Assembly (NCBI RefSeq): GCF_001542625.1
Contig: NZ_CP016279.1
Coordinates: 9,052,001-9,116,000 of the forward strand
Direction of reading: 5' to 3'
From: Streptomyces griseochromogenes
Lineage (GTDB): Bacteria; Actinomycetota; Actinomycetes; Streptomycetales; Streptomycetaceae
DNA: 64,000 bases
Positions 34,192-38,836 of this stretch are shown piece after piece. How positions within the stretch are numbered: the stretch's first letter is position 1; each line of letters opens with the position of its first letter. A program made the position numbers and the translations under genes. Below the pieces are notes generated by a model. That model saw only the letters and a program-made list of their open reading frames with translations, was not told the origin of the DNA and ran no database searches.

Positions 34192-34548
34192 TCACGCACT
34201 CTGCTCGATGGCCTCGAAAATGTCGGCGTCGGTTTCACGCTGCCATTCGGGGAGGTCTCCCCAACCGGCGACGTACCCCGGCTTCGGGTCCTCGAAGTGC
34301 TGGTACATCTGGGCCGTCCAGCACACCGCGACGAACTGCCCCTTCTGTTCGCGGCTCAGGCGTGCGGAGCACCCTGCGCTGACGCGGATGAAGTCCCGGA
34401 CCTGACCGCAGACGGCAGCGGCGGCTGCGCGCTCCCACGCGGGCGTCTCCTCCCAAGGGGTGACGTAGCTGGGCTTCGGCTCGCCGGGGAAGTGCTTGTG
34501 CACGCCGGCGATCCATGCCTCGCGGAAGATCCGGCCGTCCTCACTCAT
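34192..34548 (-). CDS. Duplicated-repeat protein paired with XRE regulator, unknown function
   Basis: A 118-aa soluble protein that I do not recognise. It contains two copies of one ~45-residue unit. Unit 1 (residues ~10-50) has HFPGEPKPSYVTPWEETPAW; unit 2 (residues ~73-116) has HFEDPKPGYVAGWGDLPEWQ. Shared positions are W..(H/Q)HF..PKP.YV..W...P.W(E/Q)R. Cys residues occur in VCGQV, AGCSA and AVCWT. ATG 34548 with AAGGGG is 13 bases behind the XRE gene on the same strand, so the two are co-transcribed. A role with that regulator, for example as a partner or sensor, is inferred only from position. Confidence 0.75.
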   Translation of the reverse strand: MSEDGRIFREAWIAGVHKHFPGEPKPSYVTPWEETPAWERAAAAAVCGQVRDFIRVSAGCSARLSREQKGQFVAVCWTAQMYQHFEDPKPGYVAGWGDLPEWQRETDADIFEAIEQSA

Positions 34549-34561
34549 GAAGTCCCCTTCT

Positions 34562-35812
34562 TCAGGCGGCACTCGGCAGTGCCGCGATCTTCTCGTGCAG
34601 CTCAGAGATTCGGGTATCGGCAGGCAGCCCGGCAAGACGGGAGCGAAGGCCGTGGAGTTTGGCGCCCACGTATCCCGAGTGCGTCTGTCCGGCCACGGTC
34701 AGAGCCTGGTCGGCGTAGTGGACGAGCTGGTCGATGTCACCTCGGTGGGCACCCAGCGTGGCGAGATCAGCGAGAACAGCACCCCGTCGACGAGGACTCA
34801 ATTCCTGTGCGAGTGCGGACGCCAGCGCCTCCTCGGCAAGATCGGGGCGGCCGAGTGTCACGTAGCAGGCTCCGCGTTCCTCGCAGAGGCGGGATCCGTC
34901 GAAGCGGAGCCATCCTCCGTGGTGGAGCTGGCCATCGAGGGTGTGTACCTCCTCTGCGGTGTCGAGGGCGCGGGAACAAGCGTCGACGTCACCCAGAGCG
35001 GCATGGACCTCGGCCTGTACGGCTGACACCCAGTAGCGGGTGGAAAGAGCGCTGTCGCCCCGCCGAGCGATGTTCGACGCGGCCGACAGCAGCGGGGCCG
35101 CCGACGCGGCCCGGTCCGCGTACAACTCGACGTAGGCGTGCCGTGTCATCGCGCAAGCCCAGAGGTCGTACATCCGTGCCTCCTTCGCCGCGTTCGCAGC
35201 GAGGGTGTAGCAGTGGGCGGACAGGGCGTCGTCGCGCGCGTCGAAAAACAGCTCACCGGCCAACTGGTAGAGATTGCCAACCTGCATGAGGAGGCGCTTG
35301 CGGTCGATCTCACTACGGACTTCCACCAGGCTCTTTGCCAGCAGCGCGAGTTGATGACGGATAACCGGGTAAACCGTGCTCTTGTCGTCGGTGAGGCCGT
35401 AGACCTGCCACAAGTGCTCGATCATCGCCTCTCCCGTCTCGAACACCGTGGCGGACTCCTGCCTCGCGGAAGCGGAGGCCAAGGGTTCGGGCAGGGTGAT
35501 GAGCGCACCCGTGGCGGCGAGCAGTCCGAGAAGGTCGCGGCGTCTCATGTCGTCAGGATCGCCGAGCGAAGCGGGAATCGGGATGTCCTGCGGGGTGACC
35601 GTCGTCACGGCGACGAGGAATCCGTCCAGATCCGCCGCTGTCACACCCAAGAGCTTCGCGATCTTGGGACGCTGGTACGGCCGGGGTGTGGAATGCCCGC
35701 CCTCCCAGCGTACGACCGTGGATGTGGCGACTCCGAGAAGGGCGGCGAACTCCTCTTGGGAGTAGCCACGTGCCGCGCGTTGCTCCGCGAGCCCTCGGCG
35801 TTTGGCCGTCAT
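34562..35812 (-). CDS. XRE-family regulator with TPR-like sensor domain
   Basis: A 416-aa protein. Residues 1-60 form a lambda-repressor-type helix-turn-helix (YSQEEFAALLGVATSTVVRWEGGHSTPRPYQRPKIAKLLGV). A linker with DDMRRRDLLGLLAATGALITLP follows, the phrase that recurs in a large Streptomyces regulator group, then about 270 residues of helical TPR-like repeats with alternating Ala-rich helices. The latter resemble sensor domains of peptide- or partner-responsive regulators. The frame is open to 35992, but the ATG at 35812 has GGAGG five bases upstream. It is divergent from the HATPase/radical-SAM operon, with 212 bp between, and is its likely regulator. Confidence 0.87.
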   Translation of the reverse strand: MTAKRRGLAEQRAARGYSQEEFAALLGVATSTVVRWEGGHSTPRPYQRPKIAKLLGVTAADLDGFLVAVTTVTPQDIPIPASLGDPDDMRRRDLLGLLAATGALITLPEPLASASARQESATVFETGEAMIEHLWQVYGLTDDKSTVYPVIRHQLALLAKSLVEVRSEIDRKRLLMQVGNLYQLAGELFFDARDDALSAHCYTLAANAAKEARMYDLWACAMTRHAYVELYADRAASAAPLLSAASNIARRGDSALSTRYWVSAVQAEVHAALGDVDACSRALDTAEEVHTLDGQLHHGGWLRFDGSRLCEERGACYVTLGRPDLAEEALASALAQELSPRRRGAVLADLATLGAHRGDIDQLVHYADQALTVAGQTHSGYVGAKLHGLRSRLAGLPADTRISELHEKIAALPSAA

Positions 35813-36024
35813 CGACGCCTCCGCATGTCTAGCATCACCCCAGGTCACAGCCCCAACGCACGGGAAACGCCTGGACAATGCCTTGGCCCTGCTCTGGGAC
35901 ACGGTAACGCAATGCAGTTCCCTGATCACAGCCGTCGAGAACGCGTGGTTCCCCGTCGGCGGCAGTGGAGGAGAGGGCCGTCCGCACCCCATTGCGGGCG
36001 GCCACGCTTGGAGGGATCAAGTCC

Positions 36025-36447
36025 GTGCTCAAGGCCGTTGGCAGACCTACCACAACCGGCATTCCCAGCTACTCGGAAACGATGCCGTGCAAGCCCGAGT
36101 CCGCGCGGCGAGCCCGGTTGCTCGTCACCGCCGCCCTGAGCACTTGGGGCATAGAGGAGCTGGTGGACGCGGCGAAGCTGGTCGTCGACGAACTGCTGAC
36201 GAACGCGATCGACCACACCCGCTGTCGCACGGCGCGGATCGCCATCCGGCGCATCGCCGACGACCGCGTACGGATCAGCGTCGCCGACACGTCCCGCGAT
36301 GTCCCCGACATGAGTAACCCCCGTCAGGACTCGGAGGATGGCCGTGGCCTGGTCCTGGTCGACGCTCTCTCCGACCAATGGGGCTACGACCGGCACCGGA
36401 CCTGGAAGGTCGTGTGGGCCGAACTCCGCACGGGGGCCAGCCGGTGA
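36025..36447 (+). CDS. Anti-sigma-factor-like ATP-binding protein (HATPase_c_2)
   Basis: A 140-aa GHKL-type ATP-binding domain of the SpoIIAB/RsbW-like group. The N-box is LVVDELLTNAIDHT (Glu and Asn for Mg-ATP), and later boxes are ISVADTSRDVP and DGRGLVLVDALSDQWGY. It has no histidine phosphorylation site, so it is a serine-kinase-like anti-sigma or partner-switch protein rather than a sensor kinase; no cognate sigma is adjacent. I chose GTG 36025 because GGAGGG stands nine bases upstream; a GTG at 35965 would add 20 residues. Its TGA overlaps the next GTG. Confidence 0.83.
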   Translation: MLKAVGRPTTTGIPSYSETMPCKPESARRARLLVTAALSTWGIEELVDAAKLVVDELLTNAIDHTRCRTARIAIRRIADDRVRISVADTSRDVPDMSNPRQDSEDGRGLVLVDALSDQWGYDRHRTWKVVWAELRTGASR

Positions 36448-36599
36448 GGCAGCGGATCACGGTCGTTGTCCTCTACGTCACCGTCCTCGTGGTCCTGGTC
36501 CTCTCCATGCTGCGGTACGCCGAATCCGGCCCCTCAGGAGCCGCACACGTGACGAAGGGAGGGGACGGTGCACAAGCTGATCGCGAGCCCGTTCCTTGA
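36444..36599 (+). CDS. Small single-pass membrane protein, unknown function
   Basis: A 51-aa peptide with one hydrophobic helix (ITVVVLYVTVLVVLVLSML) after a short basic start and a polar C-terminal tail (RYAESGPSGAAHVTKGGDG). The GTG overlaps the HATPase stop as GTGA, the same coupling as at two later junctions of the operon. The tail overlaps the next start by 32 bases. It is too short for family assignment; the evidence that it is real is the overlap and the clean helix. Confidence 0.6.
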   Translation: MRQRITVVVLYVTVLVVLVLSMLRYAESGPSGAAHVTKGGDGAQADREPVP

Positions 36600-36750
36600 T
36601 CAGTACTTGCTCGTACGCCCAGGCAGCCGGGGCGGAGTTCTCCTGCCTCGCAGCCATTACGAGGAACTGCGAGCCCATGCGGCTCCACTCAGGCAGCACC
36701 TTCATGGCTCGCGGACGTCGTACAGGAGCAGTGGCCCGGCCTGGAAGTGA
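36568..36750 (+). CDS. N-terminal fragment associated with radical SAM enzyme (probable frameshift)
   Basis: A 60-aa reading frame beginning at GTG with GGGAGGGG just upstream. Its first ~45 residues (IASPFLDQYLLVRPGSRGG ... HYEELRAHAAPL) read like an N-terminal domain, but after about 36690 the frame turns into unlikely sequence and ends in a GTGA overlap with the radical SAM gene. In the radical SAM frame the DNA upstream of the annotated GTG already reads as APSWLADVVQEQWPGLEV with strong third-position G+C. The simplest explanation is one original gene starting at 36568 that has lost one base near 36685-36700, a sequencing error, or a programmed -1 shift. Confidence 0.6.
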   Translation: MHKLIASPFLDQYLLVRPGSRGGVLLPRSHYEELRAHAAPLRQHLHGSRTSYRSSGPAWK

Positions 36751-37688
36751 CCGGACGGTCGACGGCTGAATTCCTCCTGGTCAGGCACCTGTCGAAGTGG
36801 GGCTACGCACGGGCGAGCTTTGAAATCAACCTCGGCTGCAACCTCAGGTGCAAGCACTGCTACCTCGGACTCAAGGTGAACTCGGGCATGCCGCTCGCCG
36901 ACAAGCTGCGCTGCCTTCGGATCATGACCGAGGCCGGGGTGCTGTGGCTCCAGATCACCGGCGGCGAACCGACCATCGACAAGGACTTCCCTGCCACCTA
37001 CCGGGCCGCGTTCGAGCTGGGCATGATGATCAGTGTCTCGACGAACGGATCACTGCTGTGGCGGGAGAATCTGCTGACACTGTTCCGTGCGTGTCCGCCG
37101 TACCGCGTGACCGTGTCCATGTACGGGGCGACGAAAGCCACCTACGACGAACTCACGCAACGGGAAGGCGCCTGGGACCTGTTCGTACAGGGCATGAACG
37201 CTGCTCGCGCCGCCAGGTTGCCGCTGCGGATGAGCATCATCGTCACCGAGGACACCGCCCACGAGGAACAGGCAATGCTCGACCTGTGCGAGAGGTGGGG
37301 CGTCGAGTACAACGTCTTCACCAACGTGACCCCGACGATCTATGGCGGAGGCGAAGTACTGACCGCGCAGTCCAAGGAACACTTGCGCATGCGCAAGCAG
37401 TTCACCGGCTGCAACGCGGGACACACGTTCTTCCACACCGACCCTCACGGCCTGGTGTCCATCTGCAAGATCGGCCGTGACGAGCAGATCAGCCTTCCGT
37501 TGGAGGGCATCGACGGCCTCTCCCGGCTCGGCGCCATCGCCGACCGGCTCATGCTTCGCACTGGTGGCTGCTCCGGTTGCAAGCTGTCCGGCACGTGCAC
37601 GGTGTGCCGGCCGCTGGCCAAGCACTATCAGGAAGCGAAGGCACCACTGGAAAGTTACTGCCAGCACGGAATCAGGAAGGCAGGGTGA
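36747..37688 (+). CDS. Radical SAM/SPASM peptide-modifying enzyme
   Basis: A 313-aa enzyme from the GTG at 36747. C31-x3-C35-x2-C38 (GCNLRCKHCYLG) binds the SAM-cleaving [4Fe-4S] cluster, and ITGGEPT is the SAM-contact GGE motif. The C-terminal third is a SPASM domain for auxiliary clusters: TGCNAGHTFF, SICKIG, then C-x2-C-x5-C-x2-C (GGCSGCKLSGTCTVC) and YCQHG. SPASM enzymes commonly modify small peptides (PqqE, MftC, sactionine and cyclophane synthases). The stop overlaps the peptide gene's upstream GTG (GTGA). The true N-terminus may include the preceding small frame. The reaction is unknown. Confidence 0.9.
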   Translation: MTGRSTAEFLLVRHLSKWGYARASFEINLGCNLRCKHCYLGLKVNSGMPLADKLRCLRIMTEAGVLWLQITGGEPTIDKDFPATYRAAFELGMMISVSTNGSLLWRENLLTLFRACPPYRVTVSMYGATKATYDELTQREGAWDLFVQGMNAARAARLPLRMSIIVTEDTAHEEQAMLDLCERWGVEYNVFTNVTPTIYGGGEVLTAQSKEHLRMRKQFTGCNAGHTFFHTDPHGLVSICKIGRDEQISLPLEGIDGLSRLGAIADRLMLRTGGCSGCKLSGTCTVCRPLAKHYQEAKAPLESYCQHGIRKAG

Positions 37689-37879
37689 ACAGCATGACCG
37701 CTGTCGCTGTCGAAATCTCCCCGAAGCGTCCGCTGCCAGGCGGTGGGCTGCCGTACTTCACGCGGCCCGTCGAGCCCGGCCCGGCACCAGTCACCGTGAT
37801 GACGGCTGTCGCCGACCTCGACGAGATCATGGACAGCATCAAGTGCTCGTGCAACGCGGGCGATGACAACCCCCACTGA
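37685..37879 (+). CDS. Candidate precursor peptide of the radical SAM system
   Basis: A 64-aa peptide from the overlapping GTG, or 61 aa from the ATG at 37694; AGGAAGG lies four bases before the GTG. The N-terminal part is Pro/Gly-rich (SPKRPLPGGGLPYFTRP), and a short acidic helix-like stretch (VADLDEIMDS) leads to the C-terminus IKCSCNAGDDNPH. That leader/core layout, with the only two Cys of the peptide in a CxC and polar Asn/Asp residues at the end, and its place right behind a SPASM enzyme, mark it as the likely substrate. A perfect 18-bp palindrome begins just before its stop codon. Nothing shows where cleavage would occur. Confidence 0.78.
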   Translation: MNSMTAVAVEISPKRPLPGGGLPYFTRPVEPGPAPVTVMTAVADLDEIMDSIKCSCNAGDDNPH

Positions 37880-37893
37880 TCACATGTGATCAG
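37876..37893. promoter_or_regulatory. 18-bp perfect palindrome over the precursor stop codon
   Basis: CTGATCACATGTGATCAG is fully self-complementary and includes the TGA stop (37877-37879). It may be an operator controlling the GNAT gene, whose -10 element lies 59 bases downstream, or a small hairpin that stabilises or terminates the precursor message. Confidence 0.7.
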
Positions 37894-37963: not shown

Positions 37964-38836
37964 ATGGGATTCGACTGGGACGCTCTACGCCCCTATCTCA
38001 CCGTGCCGTACATCCCTACCATCGGCCCCGTCCATCCCTCCGTACTCGCCCAGGAGCGCTTCGAGGACATCCTCACCGCCGCTGGCAGTGGACGATTCCT
38101 GCCTTACGACAAGGACCGTCGCTGGTCGCCGATGAAACAAGAGCGCGTCCTCGTCGAGGACATCGAGCAGACTCCCGGTAAGACCCTGGTCCCGACCCTG
38201 ACCCGACACGGCCACGACACCGTCAAAGTCCATGTCTACAGCTGCGAACCCGACGCTCTCACCACCGCAGCGGTCCATGCGAAGAAGCTGTGCGCTGCCC
38301 ACGACGCGAAAGTGGCCCGCGTCGTATGGTTCCTTGGTCCTGAGCAGCCGGAGCACTACGTCCGGGGGACACGCGTCCAACTCAAGGACTTCGCTGCGGG
38401 AGCCGGTGCCGACCCAGGCGCAGGCGTCCAGGAGTACGAAGAGTTGCCTGGCGAGGCACGGGCAGGGTTCGCGGAATTCGCGGAGCGCATGGCCGACGAC
38501 GGGTTCGCGTTCCTGTACCAGCGAATGAAGCTCGGCCACGTCGGTTCCATCCTCACCGTCTCACACGAAGGCAAGGTGGCGGGAGCGATCGGCCCCATGG
38601 AGACCATGGTGGACGCCATCGGCCAGACTCAGCTCCTGCCGCAGTACTTCGGCGTGCTCCCCGAGTTCCGAGGACACGGCTACGGGCGTGCTTTGTGGCG
38701 TGCAGCGATGCATTGGGGACACCGGCATGGCGCCGCCTACCAGCTTCTCCAGACAGAAGTCGGAGGAGCATCCGACCGCCTGTGTGCAGCCGAGGGACTC
38801 GCTTCTCTCGGGTTCGTCTGCTCAGTGAAGGCATGA
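37964..38836 (+). CDS. GNAT-family N-acetyltransferase
   Basis: A 290-aa protein. The C-terminal ~100 residues form a GNAT domain with the acetyl-CoA loop VLPEFRGHGYGRALWRAAMHWG. The N-terminal ~180 residues (FDWDALRPYLTVPYIPTIGPVHPS ...) match nothing I know and could be a second degenerate GNAT fold or a substrate domain. The frame is open to 37886, but the ATG at 37964 has a TACCGT -10 element six bases upstream. It follows the precursor peptide gene by 84 bases on the same strand; acetylation of the modified peptide or a self-resistance role is possible but inferred. Confidence 0.82.
   Translation: MGFDWDALRPYLTVPYIPTIGPVHPSVLAQERFEDILTAAGSGRFLPYDKDRRWSPMKQERVLVEDIEQTPGKTLVPTLTRHGHDTVKVHVYSCEPDALTTAAVHAKKLCAAHDAKVARVVWFLGPEQPEHYVRGTRVQLKDFAAGAGADPGAGVQEYEELPGEARAGFAEFAERMADDGFAFLYQRMKLGHVGSILTVSHEGKVAGAIGPMETMVDAIGQTQLLPQYFGVLPEFRGHGYGRALWRAAMHWGHRHGAAYQLLQTEVGGASDRLCAAEGLASLGFVCSVKA

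Follow-up and report, generated by a model that had tools for sequence, protein, structure and literature searches.

A three-gene cassette was found in a 64,000-nucleotide stretch of Streptomyces griseochromogenes DNA (the window; positions are counted from its first letter). It consists of a radical S-adenosylmethionine (rSAM) gene of the SPASM type, a gene for a small precursor peptide, and a gene for a GNAT acetyltransferase. Judged by its conservation across genomes, the cassette is a real and widespread family resembling those of ribosomally synthesized and post-translationally modified peptides (RiPPs), and no description of it was found in the literature searched. The strings CSCNAGDDNP, CSCDAGDDNP, CSCSAGDDQP, CSCAAGDDNP, AGDDNPH, and AGDDNPY were absent from that literature, which mostly excluded subscription journals and supplements, and the seven matches to DDNPY, NDNPY, DDNPH, and two longer strings were unrelated by title. 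The copy in the window is likely a broken one. We consider it fairly probable that this is a RiPP-type cassette in which a RiPP recognition element (RRE) guides rSAM modification of the peptide tail, after which the third enzyme acts on that peptide as well. The strongest new point, as far as sequences tell, is that the third gene tracks the tail residue after the proline.

All three genes lie on the forward strand. The first-pass annotation, made from the window sequence, had placed an rSAM gene and a coupled peptide of 61–64 residues at 36568..37893. Both are present, but the rSAM gene occupies two frames, not one: its 5' part is in frame 1 (36568..36681) and the rest in frame 3 (36681..37688). 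An open reading frame (ORF) of 313 residues in frame 3 (36747-37688) begins at GTG 36747, the first start in that frame. The peptide has 61 residues when read from its ATG (37694..37879). Reading from GTG 37685, a start codon that overlaps the stop of the rSAM gene, gives 64. It begins with MTAVAVEI, carries a DLDEIMDS stretch, and has the C-terminal end IKCSCNAGDDNPH, in which the tail CSCNAGDDNPH (37844..37876) is the likely core. The third gene encodes a tandem-GNAT acetyltransferase of 290 residues (37964..38836), whose start was set by family alignment at ATG 37964 and not at GTG 37886.

Two sets of loci were used to examine whether the peptide and the enzyme belong together. In the peptide-found set, genome contigs were scanned with the pattern CSCxA[GS]DD[NQ], giving 143 pattern matches, 115 relatives, and 80 loci that were kept; one (L039) is a duplicate contig of one genome and was left out. 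An rSAM gene or its remnant lay directly upstream of the peptide in 72 of the remaining 79 loci. Among these 79, the gene was intact in 61, broken in 10, and truncated by a contig end in 1; the other 7 had none. In the rSAM-found set, a tail was defined as a small ORF ending in C, 1–6 residues, D-[N/Q]-P, 0–2 residues, and a stop. Such a peptide stood directly downstream of 76 of 77 distinct rSAM sequences found without the peptide, that of the window included; the sole exception (L296) is a broken rSAM gene with no tail-bearing ORF downstream. Two further loci outside the 77-sequence script (G290:C1:290687 and G153:C17) also have tails (L012 and L031). The two sets share many genomes because the collections share species. 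A conserved peptide beside homologous rSAM genes had been set beforehand as the test of the annotated pair, and these counts bear the annotation out. A small encoded precursor thus stands beside an enzyme of the modifying type and the two are conserved together, as in a RiPP system; the peptide and the SPASM gene are, on this comparative evidence, real and belong together.

The rSAM gene occurred in 56 of 295 genomes of the same genus and in 71 of 392 in an overlapping larger draw. The peptide was matched at E<=0.01 in 39 of the 295 genomes, some of them by chance; one such chance match, without a tail, is L029. A draw across the phylum gave 6 positive genomes of 396, all of the same genus. 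The tail also occurs in Kitasatospora, and there were single named occurrences in Amycolatopsis, Nocardiopsis, Glycomyces, Rhizohabitans, Frankia, Actinophytocola, and other genera, so the earlier impression that similar ends recur in Streptomyces was correct and can be extended beyond that genus.

Three stretches recur in the peptide: MTAVxVEIxP at the start, DLD midway, and the tail at the end. The tails fall into the classes CSCxAGDD[N/Q]P followed by H, Y, F, or N; GCSCQADDDQPY; GC[N/G/S]DDNPY[N/R/K]; GCG[N/E]DNPY[Q/N]; and GCGNDNP[Y/F]. CSC is replaced in single loci by CFC (L021), CAC (L298), or CNC (L285). One Cys, one Asp, and one Pro were invariant over all classes in an alignment of 24 diverse peptides. 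The annotation had expected conserved C-termini with CxC. Conservation held across loci, but CxC is not universal; a strictly CxC core is ruled out by the single-Cys class (for example, GCNDDNPYR), and what stays constant is therefore one Cys and D-[N/Q]-P. The Asn ends likewise rule out that an aromatic end is strictly required. In 86 CSC-type peptides, the tail Ser and Ala were constant in all 86 while their codons varied, although the script did not fix either position (it allowed Ala or Gly at the latter); Cys, Asp, and Pro were demanded by the script, so their constancy proves nothing. The ratio of non-synonymous to synonymous polymorphism (pN/pS) in these peptides was 0.24 in the tail versus 0.73 in the first eight codons, the tail value being biased low because the loci had been found with CSCxA[GS]DD[NQ] and the script demanded those three residues. 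A profile of the 24 peptides matched 569 protein clusters at E<=1e-3, and every name among the best 120 of the 569 was "hypothetical" or "uncharacterized" protein. No NCBIfam or Pfam family reached its cut-off for the peptide.

The frame-3 part of the window gene matches PF04055 (E 2e-15) and carries CxxxCxxC and seven SPASM cysteines. SPASM enzymes have CxxxCxxC together with C-x9-15-G-x4-C, C-x2-C-x5-C-x2/3-C, and a further C. The cysteines described in the first-pass annotation (C31-x3-C35-x2-C38 and a late C-x2-C-x5-C-x2-C) are present in the 313-residue ORF, but the real set is larger, and an RRE-like domain had gone unmentioned. In the numbering of P0001, the best database match (373 residues, intact, and identical over the whole 313-residue ORF), the SPASM set is C282-x12-G-x4-C300, C335-x2-C338-x5-C344-x2-C347, and C365. 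The alignment of 43 relatives places the window enzyme family within the SPASM pattern: C91, C95, C98, C282, C335, C338, C344, C347, and C365 were invariant, and C300 was kept in at least 90% of the 43 rows.

An AlphaFold2 model of P0001 had a mean confidence score (pLDDT) of 83.9, with block means of 89–94 over the first 90 residues and lower values in the SPASM part. It predicts an N-terminal RRE-like domain, whose coding sequence is split between two frames in the window. An RRE is defined as a bbb-aaa winged helix (PMC12710340), here standing before the barrel, and the model fits this description. No RRE or PqqD model was among the Pfam matches. The solved folds nearest to the model are SkfB and SuiB, which align from residues 1–3 onward and share the predicted RRE, the rSAM barrel, and the SPASM order; they differ in having only 16–17% identity and another precursor. 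With the 313-residue ORF, weak matches below cut-off to many rSAM families were obtained in NCBIfam (best 25 of 51), and no specific NCBIfam or Pfam family reached its cut-off, only the general PF04055. The StsB sactipeptide maturase model NF045574, also a RiPP SPASM enzyme, scored 45 bits against a cut-off of 625. The mycofactocin rSAM model TIGR03962 scored 55 bits against 265 (E 7e-15). In S. viridosporus, a 304-residue rSAM protein (P0040) has a C-terminus that runs into SGAGDENPH, as if a deletion had fused enzyme and tail.

Residues 1–38 of P0001 correspond to frame 1 of the window, from GTG 36568, and residues 39–373 to frame 3. P0001 reads straight through, which means that the gene in the window is shifted by one base near 36.68 kb. 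An intact rSAM homologue in S. alanosinicus (L033) is 87% identical. In the predicted fold, the frame-1 part covers the first three strands and the first helix of the RRE-like domain, and the frame is lost before the second helix; the 313-residue ORF would therefore be without most of the leader-binding part. Because the frame breaks in the RRE, the window copy is probably non-functional or there is an assembly error at that point. It is quite possible, though short of probable, that the shift is a sequencing or assembly error and that the strain itself has an intact gene: P0001 is intact and identical over the ORF, and the difference is a single base. Against this, the host genome (10.76 Mb) is a single contig at 100% completeness, and the broken and absent rSAM genes in the peptide-found set show that such damage is common, one gene being interrupted by a stop in the same RRE. 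That gene (L034, S. kronopolitis) has an in-frame stop at codon 52 and, like the window, leaves a downstream ORF of 313 residues. A shared break hot spot was dropped, since breaks lie at residues 38, 52, 109, 217, about 270, and 293.

The gene after the peptide, which encodes either a GNAT or an APH-like kinase, is part of the cassette. Across 123 distinct rSAM loci, 63 of 66 Tyr tails were accompanied by the kinase versus none of 57 His, Phe, or Asn tails. The GNAT reaches the PF00583 gathering score of 20.7. With PF01636 (APH), one kinase (L098) scored 19.2 bits against a gathering score of 23.2. The kinases carry an HTDxxxxN loop and DW in 11 of 11 aligned rows. With the kinase profile, the top match among solved structures was corramycin phosphotransferase, weakly (E 0.0019), followed by casein kinases (0.0026). 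A PF01636 phosphotransferase gene also occurs in a Streptomyces lanthipeptide cluster, with a proposed role in dehydration or cyclization (PMC7794033). The Ser of CSC was dropped as the GNAT target, as loci with CAC (L298) and CFC (L021) retain the GNAT. In one genome, a tandem pair of cassette-family kinase matches was seen, one with an internal stop (G292:C1:67742-69404).

Gene pairing, tail conservation, SPASM anatomy, and the co-occurrence of kinase and Tyr, together with the RRE of the predicted model, are the data behind the RRE-guided reading. The N-terminal RRE would bind MTAVxVEI, the conserved beginning of the leader of the neighbouring peptide, and the rSAM/SPASM enzyme would then modify the short, nearly invariant tail; by analogy with known systems, we infer leader binding and radical chemistry with the peptide as substrate. 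The most likely bond would be a thioether from the invariant Cys to the Asp or Asn of the D-[N/Q]-P stretch. Further modification of the peptide would come from the APH-like kinase, phosphorylating the tail Tyr where present, from the tandem GNAT in the CSC class, or from both. We are less sure of the thioether, of Tyr phosphorylation, and of whether GNAT and kinase would tailor or protect.

Several known systems resemble the cassette in part. PapB, which makes the ranthipeptide freyrasin, is a SPASM-type enzyme, and C-x3-D in CSCNAGD has a Cys-Asp spacing that PapB would accept (PMC9413430). Freyrasin has six CX3D motifs, whereas the cassette tail is short and single with one or two Cys, and the thioether is putative here; only the Cys-Asp spacing is compatible with the ranthipeptide/sactipeptide class, in which a thioether joins Cys to a beta/gamma or alpha carbon. 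Another parallel is offered by lasso clusters with an additional kinase or acetyltransferase, PadeK (paeninodin) or AlbT (albusnodin), whose presence goes with a conserved residue in the precursor as its target; PadeK acts on a C-terminal Ser and offers a model for the Tyr-kinase logic (PMC9266682). Unlike these, the cassette kinase is APH-like and goes with Tyr, and no lasso genes were recognised.

The tail itself admits other outcomes. It is unlikely, in our view, that the tail is the source of a small cofactor-like molecule, as in pyrroloquinoline quinone or mycofactocin. Its near-invariance across genera would fit a compound with a single set function better than an antibiotic: it is almost fixed in Streptomyces, Amycolatopsis, Nocardiopsis, Glycomyces, and Frankia, part of it being fixed by the search pattern. 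Mycofactocin MftA/MftC likewise pairs an actinobacterial SPASM enzyme with an adjoining small peptide of conserved C-terminus, and the NCBIfam model of its maturase was matched weakly, far below cut-off. The tail differs from that of MftA, no mft partner gene was recognised, no dehydrogenase or other user gene was recognised among the ORF clusters read, and the patchy distribution (71/392) with frequent loss speaks against a cofactor. Slightly less likely again is a C-C or C-O link to the terminal aromatic residue, as in triceptides, streptide, or mycofactocin, in place of a Cys thioether. Tyr, His, or Phe follows [N/Q]P in all but 4 of the 123 rSAM loci, but those four (L111, L299, L300, and L303) have Asn with an rSAM gene of full length in tblastn, and the aromatic residue ends the tail or stands one place before its end, while in triceptides it is first.

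Some results weigh against RRE-guided modification followed by a third enzyme. No modification, product, or mass was seen in this computational analysis. The kinase–Tyr association rests on only 3 supported independent switches (4 on all branches); on the tree it was concordant in 2.9 of 3 pairings and never opposite, with a sign test p of 0.25. Three Tyr loci with a usable rSAM gene are without the kinase (L066, L097, and L110), and neither GNAT nor kinase was found in L152 (Phe) and L066 (Tyr). No recurring protease was among the ORF clusters read, and no transporter-like gene there was shared by more than 10 of 80 loci, their positions being scattered. Finally, with self-matches left out of the GNAT and kinase state counts, 11 of the 79 peptide-found loci combined an intact GNAT with a broken or absent rSAM gene, and the reverse was seen in 3 (L037, L065, and L075). 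On this pattern, the GNAT may act independently of what the rSAM enzyme makes.

The same pattern would suit a different role, in which GNAT and kinase give self-protection by inactivating the finished product through acetylation or phosphorylation, as in antibiotic producers, and strains losing rSAM keep immunity. We regard this as a tentative possibility. The same place is filled by two unrelated group-transfer enzymes, and the weak corramycin phosphotransferase match points the same way. In the 295-genome sample, a full-length GNAT match was found in 29 genomes. One of these (G237) was left out because its GNAT is interrupted and its rSAM gene broken, and another (G264) was counted, its stop being only a few residues early. 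An intact rSAM gene was present in 19 of the resulting 28 and missing in 9 (G000, G014, G067, G107, G148, G176, G202, G251, and G290). In three loci (L246, L247, and L248, from G014, G176, and G107), a full-length GNAT stands in a 16-kb stretch with neither rSAM gene nor peptide tail. In L311 and L312, too, an uninterrupted kinase adjoins what remains of an rSAM gene. Against self-protection, the retention bias gave p 0.057 versus even odds and 0.11 allowing for gene length, so a significant bias was dropped, and the kinase count of 3 versus 2 is too few to use, both of the 2 (L043 and L104) being artefacts of an over-long query. The orphan kinases may be paralogues that serve other functions: of the ten in L312-L321, nine have no rSAM match and the other has a 29-residue remnant, and L313-L321 have no rSAM gene or peptide tail within 7–9 kb. 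No conserved exporter was recognised among the ORF clusters read. A GNAT that outlasts the rSAM gene fits immunity, or simply a GNAT function outside the cassette. G237 holds two separate decayed copies (L047/L253 and L178): the peptide is matched on C65, where it has a stop, and on C70, and the GNAT is broken on both.

Combining these elements, we put forward, as a speculative and somewhat doubtful proposal, a candidate new RiPP family common in Streptomyces. Its tail would be crosslinked from Cys to DNP by the SPASM enzyme, and the residue after Pro would select the partner: Tyr an APH-fold kinase, giving a phosphotyrosine peptide, and the others a tandem GNAT. These caps would be a self-protection that outlives the biosynthetic gene. 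An unannotated peptide would in this way become a defined family with a simple prediction, namely that a Tyr-to-Phe swap in the tail should cost the kinase its substrate. If true, actinobacteria would have a common peptide class with a kinase for a tail Tyr, and the tails would offer a natural series of single-residue variants for work on the SPASM mechanism.

The upstream neighbours named in the first-pass annotation, an HATPase and an XRE regulator, are in place, as is the GNAT downstream. The RsbW-like HATPase (35965..36447, forward strand) is co-directional, and its ORF cluster recurs in 17 of 117 contexts examined. The divergent NsdA-family XRE/TPR regulator (34562..35992, reverse strand) scored 151 bits with NF053720 (cut-off 75), and its cluster recurs in 50 of the 117. 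In 75 of 117 contexts, the upstream region contains an ORF from one of four regulator clusters; the scan against family models covered the window's regulator alone, the others being named from one example sequence each. These counts would suit a modified peptide that serves as an intracellular signal for the divergent regulator. We think this very unlikely, since such regulators are common in Streptomyces and several different clusters occupy the place. A NUDIX-like hydrolase gene, named from its sequence with no family scan, lies about 3.9 kb upstream in 16 of 117 contexts. A small protein (34192..34635, reverse strand), whose ORF cluster recurs in 7 of 117 contexts and whose link to the cassette is unproven, gave no match in a Pfam scan. 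It contains a repeated pattern (YVTPWEETPAWER and YVAGWGDLPEWQR) and adjoins the XRE regulator in several cassette loci.
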